IMG/VR virus record: IMGVR_UViG_3300037504_000176
Location: 1-34,261 of that record
Source of the DNA: a virus
Length of the DNA stretch: 34,261 bases
Direction: 5' to 3' (one strand)
Part shown: positions 2,548-32,439 of the stretch, one piece after another
Numbering within the stretch: position 1 is the first letter of the stretch
How the letters are laid out: each line of letters begins with the position of its first letter
Made by a program: the position numbers and the translations under genes
The notes under the pieces: model-generated
What the model was told of the DNA's origin: nothing
The model's database searches: none
What the model saw: the letters and a program-made list of their open reading frames with translations, nothing else

Positions 2548-2871
2548 TTACTCCAGATCCGCGTCAGCGCCGGGATGGGGCACCGACTGGTTGCTTTTGA
2601 CTGCACTCGCGACGTTCCCCGCCTCACGCTGCAAGGCTCGGTATTGCTGAAGCGCCGCTGTCAACTCGCCCGCCTTGCTGGGGGTGAGATACATGACAAC
2701 TTTTGTACCTTCGCCGTTCAGCAGACCGCGGTTACGCAGCGCCTCTTCAATCAGCAAAGCCGCCTGCTCGCGGGGGTCGCGTTTTTCCTTGTTGGCCAGT
2801 TTCGCCAGCGCTTCAATGCACTCGCGGGAAGGTTTGATCATGAACCGGTTAGGGATGTATTTTTCAGACAT
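2548..2871 (-). CDS. small DNA-binding-like helical protein
   Basis: 107 residues. The ATG at 2871 overlaps the end of the upstream 262-residue gene by eight bases and has GAGGTTAAGC before it. The N-terminal 50 residues (IPNRFMIKPSRECIEALAKLANKEKRD as its start) resemble a short beta strand plus two helices, as in ribbon-helix-helix proteins. The C-terminal half is a long helix. One copy of the dispersed GCTCGGTAT element lies inside this gene at 2637. The RHH reading is tentative; a regulatory role would be inference. Confidence 0.55.
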   Translation of the reverse strand: MSEKYIPNRFMIKPSRECIEALAKLANKEKRDPREQAALLIEEALRNRGLLNGEGTKVVMYLTPSKAGELTAALQQYRALQREAGNVASAVKSNQSVPHPGADADLE

Positions 2872-3652
2872 GCTTAACCTCTTCGAGTAAGTTCAGGAGC
2901 TCGCTGTGTGTTATTTGAAACTTCGCCCTCCCGTACAGAGACGCGAAGGTATTACGCAGCTGGTTTGTGTTGTAAACGGGATCGGCGTTGTGGGGGGCCT
3001 CCACGTGCTCAAGTTTCGTCTCCAGCACGCGCAGCCGTTCTTCGTAGATGTTCAGTTCGGTATGGAACATGTCACCGTACAGCATTTTACTGCGTTCGAG
3101 TTTACCGATGTGCTCGGCCAGTTTGTAGGACAATTTCCGCAGCCCGTCTATATCCAACTCCAATTGTTCCAACTGTTCATCGGTCAACTTTGTCCACTTG
3201 TCGTCAGCCTCGCTGATCGCTTCAAGCCCTCGGATTCGCTCCTCGAGGTCGTACAACGTGCGGTTGGTTTCTTGTTGCCAATCAAGCTTGCTGTTAGTAA
3301 GATCGGTAAATGTCCGAACCCACTCCTCGACCACTTCTAACCGCTCCTTGTGGTCATGTAAATCATGGTAGCAGTTTTTAATGTGCGCGCCCTGCGTGTT
3401 TTTGACGGCGACCATATCGATTTCCAGTCTTTCAAGGCGTTCCTCCAAACGGTCCAGATCCGCGCCTGCCTCTCGTACCCAATCAGACCAATCAAGCTCT
3501 TTTATGGCGTCTTTCAAGGTGCTTTCAGAGTAAATCTCGCTGCTTCCGTTGCACCGAGGGCAAACTGCGTGTGCATCCGTTTCACCTACCCCGTTACAAA
3601 AATGACAAGTTTGAACTTTGGTGATGATGAATTGCGGTTGGTAGTTGCTCAT
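2864..3652 (-). CDS. zinc-knuckle plus long coiled-coil protein
   Basis: 262 residues with AGGAGGCGATC before the ATG at 3652. Residues 16-34 hold two CxxC pairs (C16/C19 and C31/C34) in the CxxCxGxG style of the DnaJ cysteine-rich domain. From about residue 50 to the end the sequence is almost all heptad-type helix with many Leu/Glu/Arg, so a long coiled coil is expected. Proteins of this build can be structural scaffolds or chaperone adaptors, but nothing fixes the role here. It is coupled to the next gene by overlap and lies outside the tail module. Confidence 0.7.
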   Translation of the reverse strand: MSNYQPQFIITKVQTCHFCNGVGETDAHAVCPRCNGSSEIYSESTLKDAIKELDWSDWVREAGADLDRLEERLERLEIDMVAVKNTQGAHIKNCYHDLHDHKERLEVVEEWVRTFTDLTNSKLDWQQETNRTLYDLEERIRGLEAISEADDKWTKLTDEQLEQLELDIDGLRKLSYKLAEHIGKLERSKMLYGDMFHTELNIYEERLRVLETKLEHVEAPHNADPVYNTNQLRNTFASLYGRAKFQITHSELLNLLEEVKHV

Positions 3653-3661
3653 GATCGCCTC

Positions 3662-4174
3662 CTACTCTATCCTACTCAAACGATGCCGTTCAAACCCGTC
3701 CCAATCGCTGGCCAACGGAACCAGTGCAGTCCGTGCTGCTGCCAATTTTTCACGCTGGTTTTTTGTCAGCTCTTCATCTTCACTCTCGGCCATTCGCAGC
3801 CAATGATAGGCCAGCTGAGATTTCTGCTGATAGTCAGTGACGACGTCGAACGATCCACACCACAGCGGCCAACAGGAAAAATCTATATTGGCCCCGCGCA
3901 AATCGGCCCAGCGCAGATTGGCCCCGCGCAGATCGGCCTCGCATAGATTGGCATAGCGCAGATCGGCCCAGCGCAGATTGGCCCAGCGCAGATCGGCCCC
4001 GCGCAAATCGGCCCAGCGCAGATCGGCCCTGAACAGATCGGCCTCGCGCAGATCGGCCCAGCGCAGATCGGCATAGCGCAGTTTGGCCCGTTCTGGCTTT
4101 GCGTCTACGTCGTATCCAAGCCAAGCCAAGTGTTTCAGATACCATTCCTTTTGCAGATGCTGGGGGATGTTCAT
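3662..4174 (-). CDS. pentapeptide-repeat protein
   Basis: 170 residues, ATG at 4174 with AAAGGAG upstream. Residues about 30-100 are uninterrupted A(D/N)LRx repeats, roughly fourteen units, which fold as a right-handed quadrilateral beta helix. An N-terminal helical segment and a C-terminal helical domain flank it. Family members can mimic DNA and bind gyrase or other partners, but many have no known role. It is the first minus-strand gene after the divergent promoter region at 4175-4577, so it is likely the leading gene of that transcript. Target unknown. Confidence 0.88.
3890..4085. repeat. tandem 15-bp repeats within pentapeptide gene
   Basis: About a dozen near-identical 15-base units of the type gcagatcggcccagc, which encode the pentapeptide repeats. 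Nucleotide identity is higher than the protein repeat alone needs, so the array probably grew by recent slippage or recombination. It is not a CRISPR array: there are no spacers. Confidence 0.85.
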
Positions 4175-4234
4175 AAATCACTCCTTTAGGTTTCTTGATC
4201 ACATCTGTATCATTCAACTATCTCTATTCTAATG

Positions 4235-4240
4235 ATTATA
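4235..4240 (-). promoter_or_regulatory. candidate -10 box for pentapeptide-gene operon
   Basis: Read on the minus strand this is a perfect TATAAT, about 60 bases before the ATG at 4174. I see no good -35 hexamer at 16-18 bases, so it may depend on an activator or be only part of the real promoter. Confidence 0.4.
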
Positions 4241-4276
4241 GTTGTTATCACACGTGCTAAATGTCACGGGTGATAT

Positions 4277-4290
4277 ATGACATTTGTCAT
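4277..4290. promoter_or_regulatory. inverted repeat ATGACA-TT-TGTCAT (operator-like)
   Basis: Perfect six-base arms with a two-base spacer, just upstream of the minus-strand TATAAT. A related TCAC-GG-GTGA dyad lies about ten bases away at 4264-4273. The cluster suggests regulator binding; the protein is unknown. Confidence 0.45.
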
Positions 4291-4424
4291 GTCTACAGGT
4301 ATCCCAAGTAACTGGTTGCAGTTGTAAACTATATTCATGAGGAGTGATGAAAACACTCCCCGATCTGACATCAACTCGCCCAACCTCACCGTAACACACC
4401 CCCCAAAAATGAGCAACACCCCCA

Positions 4425-4443
4425 TGTTCTAAAAATTAGAACA
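4425..4443. promoter_or_regulatory. inverted repeat TGTTCTAA-AAA-TTAGAACA (operator-like)
   Basis: Perfect eight-base arms with an AAA centre, about 65 bases upstream of the plus-strand -35 box. The geometry suits a dimeric repressor or activator. No matching regulator is identifiable with certainty in the window. Confidence 0.5.
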
Positions 4444-4505
4444 CCCGTTCACCTAGCCACCTGACCAGTATTTCGACGAATTTGCCAAACTCGTGCATTT
4501 GCCCC

Positions 4506-4534
4506 TTGACATTGTAGTACTGTTATGGTACTAT
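4506..4534 (+). promoter_or_regulatory. sigma70-type promoter with embedded dyad
   Basis: TTGACA at 4506-4511, a 17-base spacer, then TACTAT at 4529-4534, 44 bases before the ATG at 4578. The dyad TAGTAC-N7-GTACTA (4515-4533) occupies the spacer and the -10 box, which is where a repressor would block polymerase. It should drive the whole plus-strand block. Confidence 0.8.
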
Positions 4535-4577
4535 ATAAACAGTGAAGGGACACATAGAGACCAAAGGGGAGATAAAA

Positions 4578-4859
4578 ATGAAACAGGGAATGCGAGTTAA
4601 GGTCACAGAGGGAATATGGGCAGGATTGATCGGAACCGTTGAGGAAATCACGAGACAAGGTGTCGTCAAAATTCGTTACGAAAAAGGCAAAGCCCTGATC
4701 GGCCCAGAGGGTGCTAAAAGCCTAGTTGAATACGAGCCCAAGCCCCAACACCAGACGACTCACCACAAACACGATGATGAACTCTCCTGCCACTACTGCG
4801 GAATGCGCGCCACCGATTTCGACTTTTTCGGCGCCCCGGTTTGCAGCGACTGCAAATAG
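4578..4859 (+). CDS. KOW-like domain plus zinc-ribbon protein
   Basis: 93 residues from the ATG at 4578, which has GGGGAG upstream; the longer frame starting at 4542 overlaps the transcription start region. Residues 3-35 (MRVKVTEGIWAGLIGTVEEI in part) have the pattern of a KOW/SH3-like RNA- or protein-binding domain. The C-terminus has C71/C74 and C89/C92, a small zinc ribbon. First gene of the plus-strand block behind a consensus promoter. A transcription- or ribosome-related role is possible from the KOW fold but is inference. Confidence 0.75.
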   Translation: MKQGMRVKVTEGIWAGLIGTVEEITRQGVVKIRYEKGKALIGPEGAKSLVEYEPKPQHQTTHHKHDDELSCHYCGMRATDFDFFGAPVCSDCK

Positions 4860-4908
4860 CCAACCAAGCGCCCCGCCGGAGGCCTCGTATCCGGCAAAGG
4901 ACAACAGC

Positions 4909-5265
4909 ATGTCACAGATCAAAATTTATGCAGGGACGAACACCAAACGAAAATGGGATGAGATTTGCGATGGCTTTACCAGCAACACAGCGGCCTTCGC
5001 AGTGTTGGTAGAAAGTTACTATCAGCAGCAGCAAGGCTCCGATTTTGAACCCTATCGAGAAGATGGCGACTATTTACAGGACGGTGTCAATCTCGGACAC
5101 CTACCCAAAGGCACAACCGTCATGTTTGCAGACGGGGAACTCGGGCGCGTCATTGAGGGCAACGCTCAGCGCTCACTAATCAGTTACCGAGCCGCACCCG
5201 GGAGCGGCGCCTCAGAACAGCGCGAGTGGTTTCACAACAAGGCGTTGTTTATCAAAACCCGATAA
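4909..5265 (+). CDS. accessory protein of unknown function
   Basis: 118 residues, ATG at 4909 with AAAGGA upstream. Residues about 1-45 (SQIKIYAGTNTKRKWDEICD, then a short helix) could be a small DNA-binding-like fold. The rest is beta-rich with no motif I know. It is followed at once by a conserved GC hairpin (5273-5294). Second gene of the plus-strand block. Confidence 0.65.
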   Translation: MSQIKIYAGTNTKRKWDEICDGFTSNTAAFAVLVESYYQQQQGSDFEPYREDGDYLQDGVNLGHLPKGTTVMFADGELGRVIEGNAQRSLISYRAAPGSGASEQREWFHNKALFIKTR

Positions 5266-5272
5266 CCACAAA

Positions 5273-5294
5273 GCCCCGCTCGAAAGGGCGGGGC
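5273..5294. repeat. intergenic GC hairpin repeat, copy 1
   Basis: GCCCCGC and GCGGGGC arms (seven bases) around an eight-base loop, starting eight bases after the stop codon. The flank ATAACCACAAAGCCCCGC, including the stop codon, is identical in copy 2. No U-run follows on the plus strand; on the minus strand TTT follows the stem. Confidence 0.75.
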
Positions 5295-5315
5295 ACAACA
5301 CAAAGGAGAAACGAA

Positions 5316-5630
5316 ATGAACCACAGACAGATTAAGAATAAAAAAGTGGATTTAGTCGAAGACAGCGCGGGCGGATTGTGCGCGATCTGTGAGGGAGTCG
5401 CTTATTGCGACCTCGAGCTGACAGAATCCACGTTCTCCGCAGACGCCCAAGCAATCATTGATGGCGATACCAGCGACTGGACAATCACCGTCTTCAGGGA
5501 CTATATACCAGAAGAGAGCTCTCAGCTTATCGCTACCTACAGTAACGGCAAGGTAACCATTGCGTGCCATTCGGATGGCGAGCCAGTCGCTGGATATTCT
5601 GGACGAGAATATTTGGGCCTTGATCAATAA
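5316..5630 (+). CDS. accessory protein of unknown function
   Basis: 104 residues, ATG at 5316 with AAAGGAG upstream. The protein is acidic and mostly beta strand, with four scattered cysteines (including LCAIC) that could form a small metal site. No family recognised. It ends in hairpin copy 2. Its position between identical hairpin-bearing junctions makes it look like an exchangeable cassette. Confidence 0.65.
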   Translation: MNHRQIKNKKVDLVEDSAGGLCAICEGVAYCDLELTESTFSADAQAIIDGDTSDWTITVFRDYIPEESSQLIATYSNGKVTIACHSDGEPVAGYSGREYLGLDQ

Positions 5631-5637
5631 CCACAAA

Positions 5638-5661
5638 GCCCCGCGCCAGCACGGGCGGGGC
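5638..5661. repeat. intergenic GC hairpin repeat, copy 2
   Basis: GCCCCGC and GCGGGGC arms with a ten-base loop, beginning eight bases after the stop of the upstream gene. It shares 18 identical bases of left flank with copy 1, and the right flank gggcggggcac with copies 1 and 3. Confidence 0.75.
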
Positions 5662-5674
5662 ACCAACACTAACC

Positions 5675-5884
5675 ATGACCGACGAACAGAAAAAAGCCTG
5701 CGACGCCGTAGACGAAATCATGGCCGCCGGGTGGACGTTCCACCCCTGGCCAAACGGCTACCGCAAAGGCTGGTGGCGCCTGCTCGATAGCGATAATCCT
5801 GTCCTCGCCATGCGGCGCGGAGACCCCAAAAACTTCTGGGTAGTCGCCCTGATCGTCAAAAAACTATATCTGGAGGAATCATAA
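5675..5884 (+). CDS. small aromatic-rich protein, unknown
   Basis: 69 residues, ATG at 5675. There is no clear Shine-Dalgarno, only the hairpin just upstream. The protein has a helical start (TDEQKKACDAVDEIMAAGW) and a Trp-rich middle (WTFHPWPNGYRKGWWRLL). It is followed almost directly by the RHH gene. Function unknown. Confidence 0.6.
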   Translation: MTDEQKKACDAVDEIMAAGWTFHPWPNGYRKGWWRLLDSDNPVLAMRRGDPKNFWVVALIVKKLYLEES

Positions 5885-5886
5885 CC

Positions 5887-6204
5887 ATGACAACAGTAAA
5901 CCAAACACTACGCATCCCGCAGTTGCTCGCTGCGCGCCTGGACCGCGTCGCTGACGAAACTGGTCGCTCGCGTCACCAGGTCATCATCGACACCTTGATG
6001 ACCGAGCACCTACCCGACGCCGCCGACCTCCTCGATCCCGACCTCATCATCGGCTACATCGAGGTTTACGACGGCGAAATCATCGGCGAGGACTGCCCGG
6101 AGTGCGGCCAACCCATGGACCGGGTCTTCGTCGGCTTCACCGTCGGCGCCACCCACCCCCAGACCTTCGGCCCAATCTGTGCAATCTGTGCCACCACAGA
6201 ATAG
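5887..6204 (+). CDS. ribbon-helix-helix protein with C-terminal zinc ribbon
   Basis: 105 residues with GGAGGAATC upstream. The N-terminus (NQTLRIPQLLAARLDRVADE, then TGRSRHQVIIDTLM) is a clear RHH fold as in CopG/Arc-type DNA-binding proteins. The C-terminus has C70/C73 and C98/C101, a zinc ribbon. RHH proteins bind operators as dimers, so this is a good candidate autoregulator of the plus-strand promoter, whose dyad at 4515-4533 has suitable geometry. That link is inference. Confidence 0.75.
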   Translation: MTTVNQTLRIPQLLAARLDRVADETGRSRHQVIIDTLMTEHLPDAADLLDPDLIIGYIEVYDGEIIGEDCPECGQPMDRVFVGFTVGATHPQTFGPICAICATTE

Positions 6205-6211
6205 CGCAGCG

Positions 6212-6240
6212 AAAAAGCCCCCCTGAGGATTGAAGGGGCC
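6212..6240 (-). terminator. Rho-independent terminator for the tail operon
   Basis: On the minus strand a GGCCCC...GGGGGGC hairpin is followed directly by TTTTTC. It lies about 60 bases after the last minus-strand tail gene and just before the convergent plus-strand genes. Confidence 0.75.
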
Positions 6241-6262
6241 AAGAGATCGCGTGGAGCCAAGA

Positions 6263-6286
6263 GCCCCGTGCCACGACGGGCGGGGC
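6263..6286. repeat. intergenic GC hairpin repeat, copy 3
   Basis: GCCCCG and CGGGGC arms around ACGGG-containing loop sequence, with the same right flank (gggcggggcac) as copies 1 and 2. It marks the end of the plus-strand block. Confidence 0.65.
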
Positions 6287-6299
6287 ACACCCAACACGC

Positions 6300-6413
6300 T
6301 CATGACTGCTGCAGCTGATTCACCCGCTTCTCGAGCTCTTTCACCCGCGCTTCAAGCTCCCTCAGCCGCTCCAGGATATTGTCGGGATAGTGATCACGCT
6401 GAATATTTGCCAT
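6300..6413 (-). CDS. 37-residue coiled-coil protein at end of tail operon
   Basis: ATG at 6413 overlaps the stop of the baseplate gene by one base (TGATG) and has AGAGGTG upstream. Residues 13-35 keep a leucine/valine heptad (NILERLRELEARVKELEKRV), so a short parallel coiled coil is likely. As the last gene before the terminator it may be a small tail or baseplate accessory protein. Function inferred from place only. Confidence 0.65.
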   Translation of the reverse strand: MANIQRDHYPDNILERLRELEARVKELEKRVNQLQQS

Positions 6414-7384
6414 CACAGCACCTCTTTTAGTTCCACGCTGAGCGTATCGCCGCGCCGCCACTCCATCGCAATGATACGAAATTCACCATCCACAGCGTGC
6501 TGCGGGTGCTCGGTATAGGCTGCCAGCCCGATTGTGTTCCCCGGGCGAATGTCGGAAAACGGTGGCTGCACGTTGCGCACTGTCGCATATTTGCGAGGCA
6601 TCTTGTACCGCTCCAGGAGTGCGTCAGTCCGACTTTGCAGCGTGTCTTCGTCAGTCGTGTCCAGGTACACCGGTCGATGCTCACGCCGTCCGTACAATCC
6701 GATAGACTGCGCATTGCTGGCAGTCACTGTAGTGCCATCCGTGCCGATCGCACGAATGAAATTATAAATCTGTTGTGGCTCCCACAGGTCAATGTTATCC
6801 GCAGCGGGCATCAACAACACATTGTCGGTTTTGTCGCTGCCGGCCGCGCTGTACCAATTCAGCCTGTAGGTCGCAATGCCGCCGACGAGCCTTGTTTTAA
6901 TGAGATAATCCTGCTCGTCGGTCAGCTGCTGAATGGAGTACAATCCTTCCGCATAGTCAAAATCGAGCGTCAATGAATCGCCGGTCTCAGCTATGTAGTC
7001 GGCGGTTAGTAGCGTGGGCGCTTGCGCGTTCAGATCGCCCAGGATACCCTCGGCTATCTGACCACGTGTGGCGCTGCTGAACGCAAGCCCTTTCGAGGTG
7101 TATCGCCAGGAAAGCGCTTTTTCAATGCTCGCAATGTTGAATTGCTTGCCATCACGCCATGTTGGCTTGCTCAAAATGCCGCCCCATGCTGGCAAGTCCA
7201 GATCCGCACTGAACTCAATCACCACAGGCGAGCCTTCGCGCCAGTACGTTCCGGCGTCCGCGTAGGGCTCGGTATGGTCTGCCTGCCCAACGGAATTGAG
7301 CCTCCACAATACCGAGCCGGTTACCCCCGCGGCTTGTTGTCGAGCCCGTCGGCTCCGATCACAAACAGTCAGGATTGCAGTCAT
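6413..7384 (-). CDS. tail tip/baseplate hub-like protein
   Basis: 323 residues, ATG at 7384, TGATG overlap with the upstream gene. The fold looks beta-rich, with a segment on joining points and offsets (PPFSDIRPGNTIGLAAY) and a C-terminal MEWRRGDTLSVELKEVL. Such endings are common in Tal/hub-type and gp18-like tail proteins that hold the tail tip together. Lying after the Dit-like protein supports this. No lytic domain is present, so it is a short hub without a spike enzyme. Moderate confidence. Confidence 0.65.
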   Translation of the reverse strand: MTAILTVCDRSRRARQQAAGVTGSVLWRLNSVGQADHTEPYADAGTYWREGSPVVIEFSADLDLPAWGGILSKPTWRDGKQFNIASIEKALSWRYTSKGLAFSSATRGQIAEGILGDLNAQAPTLLTADYIAETGDSLTLDFDYAEGLYSIQQLTDEQDYLIKTRLVGGIATYRLNWYSAAGSDKTDNVLLMPAADNIDLWEPQQIYNFIRAIGTDGTTVTASNAQSIGLYGRREHRPVYLDTTDEDTLQSRTDALLERYKMPRKYATVRNVQPPFSDIRPGNTIGLAAYTEHPQHAVDGEFRIIAMEWRRGDTLSVELKEVL

Positions 7385-31737: not shown

Positions 31738-32439
31738 CTAACTCCATGCTATCATGATGTTTTCACAACTGCGCCGGAATGCTTCATACGGTGCGCCGGC
31801 AGTATCTGAACCATCACCCCATAATTGACCACCAGCGGCCTCGCGCAGCGTAGGCCACCAGCGATTTTTAGCATAGCGCGCCGTTCCCGGCATCCAGAAC
31901 TGGCAATATCGCGTTGCCATCTTTTGCGCATAATTGCCATCCGCGCTAACCACATTTAGATAGTGCATTAATTGCATTTGTGCGCGCGGTGACCCGCCGA
32001 GAAGGTGAACCGGTCGGCGTCCGAACTCCCACACCGGCACCTCGGTGCCCGCGTAGCGCGTCGGCACGCTATAGCCGAGTACCACATCCGCACCACCCAC
32101 CCGCTCAGGGATGCGTGGGATGATATCAAACACTTTCGGGATAATCACCACTCGCTCCACATACTGCGCCGCCTCCTCCGCCCAATCCATCACCTCGTTA
32201 AATTGCTCTTCGCGCTCCAAATCGAGCACCGTTGCCTGGTGTGGCCGGTGCTCTGCCAGCGCCGCCATGTACGCCTCGCGCCGAGGCTTCCTCCAATCCT
32301 GATCTGCGAACCATAAAGGTGCCACGTCAGTGTATACGGTGCCAGGCAATTGCGCCCCGTAGAGCCAGCCAGCATCTACTGCAATTTGTGCAAATCGCTG
32401 ATTACCAGCGGCGCAGTAAATCAGATCTGGAGTCGCCAC
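31738..32439 (-). CDS. DUF6610-type phage protein (possible TGT/DpdA-related fold)
   Basis: 233 residues, GTG start at 32439. Key pieces are VIIPKVFDIIPRIPERV, VLGYSVPTRYAGTEVP and RRPVHLLGGSP, which I recognise as the DUF6610 pattern seen in actinophage proteins. The pattern looks TIM-barrel-like and may be distantly related to tRNA-guanine transglycosylases or the DNA base-exchange enzyme DpdA. No deazaguanine synthesis genes (folE, queD, queE, queC) are in the window, so DNA modification is not supported beyond this gene. Family call is likely; function is tentative. Confidence 0.7.
   Translation of the reverse strand: MATPDLIYCAAGNQRFAQIAVDAGWLYGAQLPGTVYTDVAPLWFADQDWRKPRREAYMAALAEHRPHQATVLDLEREEQFNEVMDWAEEAAQYVERVVIIPKVFDIIPRIPERVGGADVVLGYSVPTRYAGTEVPVWEFGRRPVHLLGGSPRAQMQLMHYLNVVSADGNYAQKMATRYCQFWMPGTARYAKNRWWPTLREAAGGQLWGDGSDTAGAPYEAFRRSCENIMIAWS

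Follow-up and report, generated by a model that had tools for sequence, protein, structure and literature searches.

The window analyzed here is the whole stretch of 34,261 bases, equal in length to its source record, which is classed as linear in IMG/VR. It belongs to a tailed phage, as judged by its terminase, portal, capsid protease, major head, head-tail adaptor, and Dit-like tail proteins, and the phage also encodes a primase, a helicase, an exonuclease, and a DNA methyltransferase. Every one of these genes lies on the minus strand, and the block at 4506-6204 lies on the plus strand; AT skew is positive over exactly this stretch. The block is a separate plus-strand coding unit with a promoter match and a terminal gene whose product combines an RHH domain with a zinc ribbon. 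Elsewhere in the window, a DUF6610 family protein is encoded at 31738-32439 (E value 1.1e-37). The features of the block and its surroundings are as follows.

4175-4505, no strand assigned: divergent, dyad-rich control region separating the block from the leftward operon, with dyads at 4215-4244, 4246-4275, 4259-4285, and 4425-4443
4506-4534, plus strand: sigma70-type promoter TTGACA-N17-TACTAT with an extended -10 (TATGG-TACTAT), from a motif match and a counterpart in L002/L003
4515-4533, no strand assigned: dyad TAGTAC-N7-GTACTA, candidate operator, exact and the sole match in the window
4519-4543, no strand assigned: second dyad ACTGTT-N13-AACAGT (6+6), centred on the -10 and overlapping TAGTAC-N7-GTACTA
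4578-4859, plus strand: gene 1, 93 aa, KOW/SH3-like N-terminus and zinc ribbon, from weak Pfam matches and codon score
4909-5265, plus strand: gene 2, 118 aa, without relatives; a low-confidence model predicts a beta-rich C-terminus
5270-5296, plus strand: intercistronic hairpin GCCCCGCTCGAAAGGGCGGGGC, after gene 2
5316-5630, plus strand: gene 3, 104 aa, no relatives found
5637-5663, plus strand: related intercistronic hairpin, after gene 3
5675-5884, plus strand: gene 4, 69 aa, immediately 5' of the RHH gene
5887-6204, plus strand: gene 5, 105 aa, RHH DNA-binding domain and C-terminal zinc ribbon, proposed autorepressor
6219-6238, minus strand: site resembling an intrinsic terminator
6262-6288, plus strand: third related hairpin, after gene 5

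The initial annotation had described five small genes opposed to the rest of the genome, and five plus-strand open reading frames with coding-like codon use are indeed present. Using a codon model trained on the phage's own large genes, we found that all five scored best in the plus frame, at 0.14-0.34 bits per codon compared with 0.17-0.49 for the large genes; gene 1 had the weakest score, and its antisense frame scored 0.11. Gene 1 matched the Pfam families KOW and Zn_ribbon_PriA (a PriA-type zinc ribbon) weakly, both below cut-offs, and profile and sequence searches returned no convincing relatives of genes 2-4. None of genes 1-4 matched a known family above cut-off, an entry in the defence library, or a known acr gene in libraries whose acr coverage is limited. 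Gene 2 was considered as a second RHH protein and set aside, as it had no profile support and the N-terminus of its structure model had a pLDDT of about 30-40.

Gene 5 was the exception, with relatives in three contigs only (L002, L003, and L004) among the 2.9 million viral contigs scanned. None were found in annotated phages or plasmids, and the genome contigs yielded no convincing full-length relative; of three matches there, two were to a 12-residue motif and the third, in L013, was 36% identical over 64 residues. We also compared gene 4 of the window with the gene in the same place in L002 and L003; no relationship was detectable, giving no support for homology to the L002 gene.

The initial annotation had read the last gene as an RHH protein carrying a zinc ribbon, which profile and alignment evidence bears out. 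Gene 5 matched RHH_1 with an E value of 0.0022 and a score of 18.3 bits, just short of the curated cut-off of 20.5. The L002 and L003 relatives scored above the Pfam cut-off for HicB (25.3 and 27.7 vs 21), a family that we take to be classed among the RHH families. The zinc ribbon, CPECG-x24-CAIC, retains its four cysteines in all relatives, and it forms the better conserved half of the alignment (DCPECG-PMD--VGFT-G---P--FGP-C--CA-TE). A low-confidence structure model (pLDDT 58.7) gave a strand-helix-helix arrangement (E-H-H) followed by a beta-rich tail, and the best PDB matches to this model by Foldseek, all weak, were mostly RHH proteins (among them Arc, CdbA, VapB, PutA, and CopG). By profile, gene 5 is a member of the RHH (MetJ/Arc) superfamily with a beta-alpha-alpha domain. 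It resembles Arc and Mnt in its RHH fold, its strand, helix, and "GRS" turn are like those of Arc, and Arc ranks high among the weak fold matches; it differs in having a C-terminal zinc ribbon and in ending an accessory operon, and we recognized no ant or mnt genes.

These matches also bring in a different reading, in which genes 4 and 5 form a type II toxin-antitoxin pair with a self-regulating RHH antitoxin and the remaining genes are passengers. In the L002 and L003 proteins, the RHH domain matches HicB in Pfam and a HicB-like antitoxin in PHROGs, with weak RelB-like matches besides, and the two genes are tightly spaced, being separated by 2 nt in the window and overlapping by 4 nt in L002/L003. 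However, gene 4 has no toxin-family match, its product in the window shows no detectable relationship to the L002 counterpart, and the conserved part of gene 5 is its zinc ribbon; we know of no antitoxin with such a tail. We consider a toxin-antitoxin pair improbable.

Upstream of gene 1, the TTGACA-N17-TACTAT promoter proposed by the initial annotation is present at 4506-4534, with TG preceding its -10. By count alone such a promoter is within chance expectation, with 2 sites found vs 2.7 expected between 3600 and 7000 and three other sites matching at 10 or more of 12 positions elsewhere in the window. We regard the block promoter as credible because it lies 43 bases 5' of an ATG with a strong ribosome site, AAGGGGAG, and because an equivalent promoter, TTGACA-N17-TATACT, occupies the corresponding place in the related cassettes of L002 and L003.

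The dyad TAGTAC-N7-GTACTA reported within the spacer and -10 of this promoter was confirmed as exact. When the promoter hexamers were held fixed and the spacer and flanks were shuffled, 13% and 15% of promoters in two runs carried an equally good dyad; given this frequency, the lack of a second copy in the window, and a sequence that is not conserved, we do not present it as a proven operator. Its exact 20-mer was absent from the viral contigs searched. The initial annotation had listed a lack of conservation of the dyad as something that would refute its reading, and TAGTAC-N7-GTACTA is literally missing from the promoter of the L002/L003 relatives. RHH proteins read DNA through their strand, and the residues that we take to do so, from alignment to Arc, are N5, T7, and R9 in the window protein and R6, V8, and R10 in that of L002. 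Because the DNA-reading strand differs between these relatives, a different operator is expected in each, and the missing dyad is weakened as a refutation. The L002/L003 promoter has its own imperfect dyad over the -10, GTGAATAC-N10-GTGTTCAC, which 23% of shuffles equalled, and the second dyad of the window, ACTGTT-N13-AACAGT, sits at roughly the same place. On comparison, the window and L002 both retain dyads over the -10, with differing sequences. The RHH fold, the last-gene position, and the promoter dyads together make it plausible that gene 5 encodes the autoregulator of the block.

Several promoters in the L003 and L004 records, including those at L003 8240-8420, have TATGGTACAATAT in common, and some of them carry a second ATGGTAC past the -10, like the TTATGGTACTATAT of the window. 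This feature may represent an extended -10 of the host type or else a family of operators.

On the other side of the promoter, the region at 4175-4577 gave 7 strong dyad calls vs 0.75 expected, with nested calls counted separately, and 2 of 300 shuffles reached 7. The dyads at 4215-4290 and 4425-4443 read CAACTAT-N16-ATAGTTG, TATCACACGTG-N8-CACGGGTGATA, AAATGTCA-N11-TGACATTT, and TGTTCTAA-AAA-TTAGAACA, and several of them surround a leftward-facing TATAAT at 4240-4235. They probably govern the leftward operon, which starts with a pentapeptide-repeat gene (3662-4174). L002 likewise has pentapeptide-type repeats, beyond its RHH block.

Such an arrangement could be read as a lysogeny or switch module, in which 4175-4577 pits the early leftward genes against the block and the RHH protein regulates both in the manner of Arc or Cro. 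The divergent layout, the dyad-rich intergenic region with its leftward TATAAT, and Arc-like PHROG matches are consistent with this, and the initial annotation had itself called the unit lysogeny-like. That suggestion fared poorly: the record, a possibly incomplete contig, contains no tyrosine integrase (PF00589), resolvase (PF00239), or HTH_3 repressor (PF01381). Moreover, the dyads on the leftward side are unlike those on the block promoter, and in L003 the similar unit follows a helicase gene in tandem and does not face an early operon. A switch module is, in our judgement, quite unlikely.

At the far end of the block, the terminator-like site at 6238-6219 would keep leftward transcription of the tail operon out of the block; no T-run terminator was found on the plus strand there. 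The three hairpins that follow genes 2, 3, and 5 are GC-rich, and their GCCCCG...CGGGGC core occurs nowhere else in the window. An 18-nt lead, ATAACCACAAAGCCCCGC, is identical in the two hairpins after genes 2 and 3, suggesting that gene modules were joined at these sites.

The window also contains a repeat, GCTCGGTAT, with 22 copies in 34 kb vs 0.2-0.4 expected, found on both strands and mostly within genes (sites include 6508, 21110, and 28565), with a wider consensus of gGCTCGGTATtG followed by a G-rich stretch. It is absent from the L002 phage, and the window copies that lie wholly inside aligned stretches are kept in L024 and L025, two fragments with 88-94% DNA identity. The initial annotation had noted that the block lacks this element. 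This is true, and the repeat is in fact missing from the whole 2645-6507 stretch; with about 1 copy expected per 1.7 kb, such a gap can arise by chance (Poisson P about 0.08), and we discarded it as a sign of separate regulation.

To place the block among its relatives, we compared the window with the three contigs that carry the RHH-zinc-ribbon gene. L002 is a 32.8-kb phage whose overlap with the window is limited to a terminase (38% identical), pentapeptide repeats, and the RHH gene, yet its block has the same layout: on the plus strand and antisense to the structural genes, with a strong promoter, small open reading frames, and the RHH-zinc-ribbon gene last. L003 and L004 match each other almost perfectly across 17.9 kb and are set apart by their own terminase, portal, and helicase and by an IS607-like transposase pair. 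Between L002 and L003/L004, which are otherwise unrelated, DNA-level sharing is essentially confined to a single stretch, within which there is also a 34-bp match. This stretch comprises 125 bp of terminator and promoter at 97.6% identity and then 1247 bp at 85%; in order, it holds a hairpin GAGCCGGGCTTTCGCCCGGCT(T)n, the TTGACA-N17-TATACT promoter, gene 3, gene 4, and the RHH gene, and it ends 21 bases past the stop. L002 alone has two additional small genes just behind the leader.

Within this stretch, the non-coding parts are better conserved than the genes. Between L002 and L003, the terminator and upstream sequence were 98.6% identical, the promoter 97.6%, the spacer separating genes 3 and 4 94.6%, and the tail 95.2%, whereas the three genes reached 79.7%, 84.5%, and about 86-89%. 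Substitutions in gene 4 favoured the third codon position, as for a coding gene (13, 14, and 37 by position); the bias was less clear in genes 3 and 5 (16, 21, and 27, and 12, 9, and 17). The spacer between genes 3 and 4 (167 nt; L002 7391-7563 and L003 7327-7497) lies between genes that are 80-85% identical, carries a repeat of the leader motif TTCACAAATAGAG, and folds more stably than its shuffles (-84.8 vs -71.9 kcal/mol, z -3.0) into a predicted multi-hairpin RNA. Searches against Rfam gave no match in L002 or L003, and there was no tRNA or Rfam match in the window.

Because it is common to otherwise unrelated phages, this stretch is direct sequence evidence that an L002-type unit, complete with terminator and promoter, has travelled between them, with its control parts conserved in excess of its genes. 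The moron-type unit with its own promoter envisaged by the initial annotation gains support from this terminator-to-RHH cassette. For the window, we infer that its own copy is likewise a mobile, moron-type unit from the RHH gene and layout that it has in common with L002. Presence or absence of the block in close relatives had been proposed as a check; the only near relatives by tail, neighbour, and portal proteins were L024 and L025, short fragments that do not reach the block, and no near relative covered the site with or without it.

A plainer account is that these are ordinary small early genes on the other strand, read by the host polymerase with no special autoregulation, and that the targets of the RHH-zinc-ribbon protein lie elsewhere in host or phage DNA. 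Phages commonly carry small divergent early genes, most genes of the block are orphans, and the dyad is within chance. Against this, the homologous cassette travels as a whole from promoter to RHH gene, with non-coding parts kept better than genes, and we regard the plainer account as unlikely on balance.

Among known systems, the block most invites comparison with acr-aca operons, in which a strong promoter containing an inverted repeat within its core is followed by a gene for a DNA-binding repressor (PMC9410906). The block is alike in its strong host-type promoter, core-promoter dyad, small orphan genes, downstream DNA-binding gene, and probable mobility among unrelated elements. However, Aca1-10 are helix-turn-helix (HTH) proteins (PMC9410906), whereas the regulator here combines RHH with a zinc ribbon, and the block contains no known acr gene; for these two reasons we did not file it as an Aca operon. 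The counterpart of the Aca-type repeat would be the dyads in the window and L002 promoters, which differ from each other and are within chance.

Closer in fold are the clade II pLS20-family plasmids, where an RHH repressor controls establishment genes in a like manner and whose authors describe the phage counterparts known to them as HTH (PMC8708921). The Reg proteins of pLS20 and p576 are element-encoded RHH repressors with operators flanking strong promoters, and they produce transient early expression of anti-defence genes (PMC8708921). The likeness is one of description: Reg operators occur at several promoters of a plasmid and the block has one phage promoter, and the description of Reg does not mention a zinc ribbon, which the block protein has. 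Predicted anti-defence genes of archaeal viruses also include RHH proteins (PMC11065993).

Phage moron loci are typically antisense with their own promoter (PMC7067206), and they occur in unrelated phages (PMC7067206, PMC6469090). In the window, the block has a promoter match and lies on the opposite strand, and it may be transcribed independently of its neighbours. Occurrence in unrelated phages is seen for the L002/L003/L004 cassette, of which the window shares the RHH gene and layout only. The usual proof of a moron is a close relative minus the insert at the same site. The block differs from morons in having no plus-strand T-run terminator at its end.

Taken together, our preferred reading, to which we give about an even chance, is that the block is a mobile accessory operon of the moron type with a host-type promoter, probably auto-repressed, expressed in an early burst, and likely serving counter-defence. 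Transcription would start from the block's own promoter, independently of the leftward phage operons, and the RHH-zinc-ribbon protein would probably bind the promoter dyads and close the operon once enough of it had accumulated. The outcome would be a burst of small accessory proteins early in infection, followed by self-silencing; these proteins would most likely act on the host, with counter-defence as their likeliest use. We infer the autorepression, the early timing, and the counter-defence role from the promoter, layout, and domains described above.

A bolder extension, which we offer as a speculative and rather unlikely one, is that the RHH-zinc-ribbon protein represents a new, Aca-like class of phage autorepressors, of which it would be the first, and that this class marks portable anti-defence cassettes with counter-defence cargo. 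Its zinc ribbon might then sense or contact the host polymerase, a defence protein, or the metal or redox state, and so set the time of silencing. If the protein is such a repressor, it would provide a new bait for anti-defence genes where HTH-type Aca baits find nothing, and the "burst then silence" control that RHH proteins exert in conjugative plasmids would extend to phages. The L002/L003 cassette, which keeps its control parts better than its genes, is useful for mapping the regulation of such units. For this phage, the block suggests a portable accessory unit, perhaps directed against host defences, that may switch itself off.
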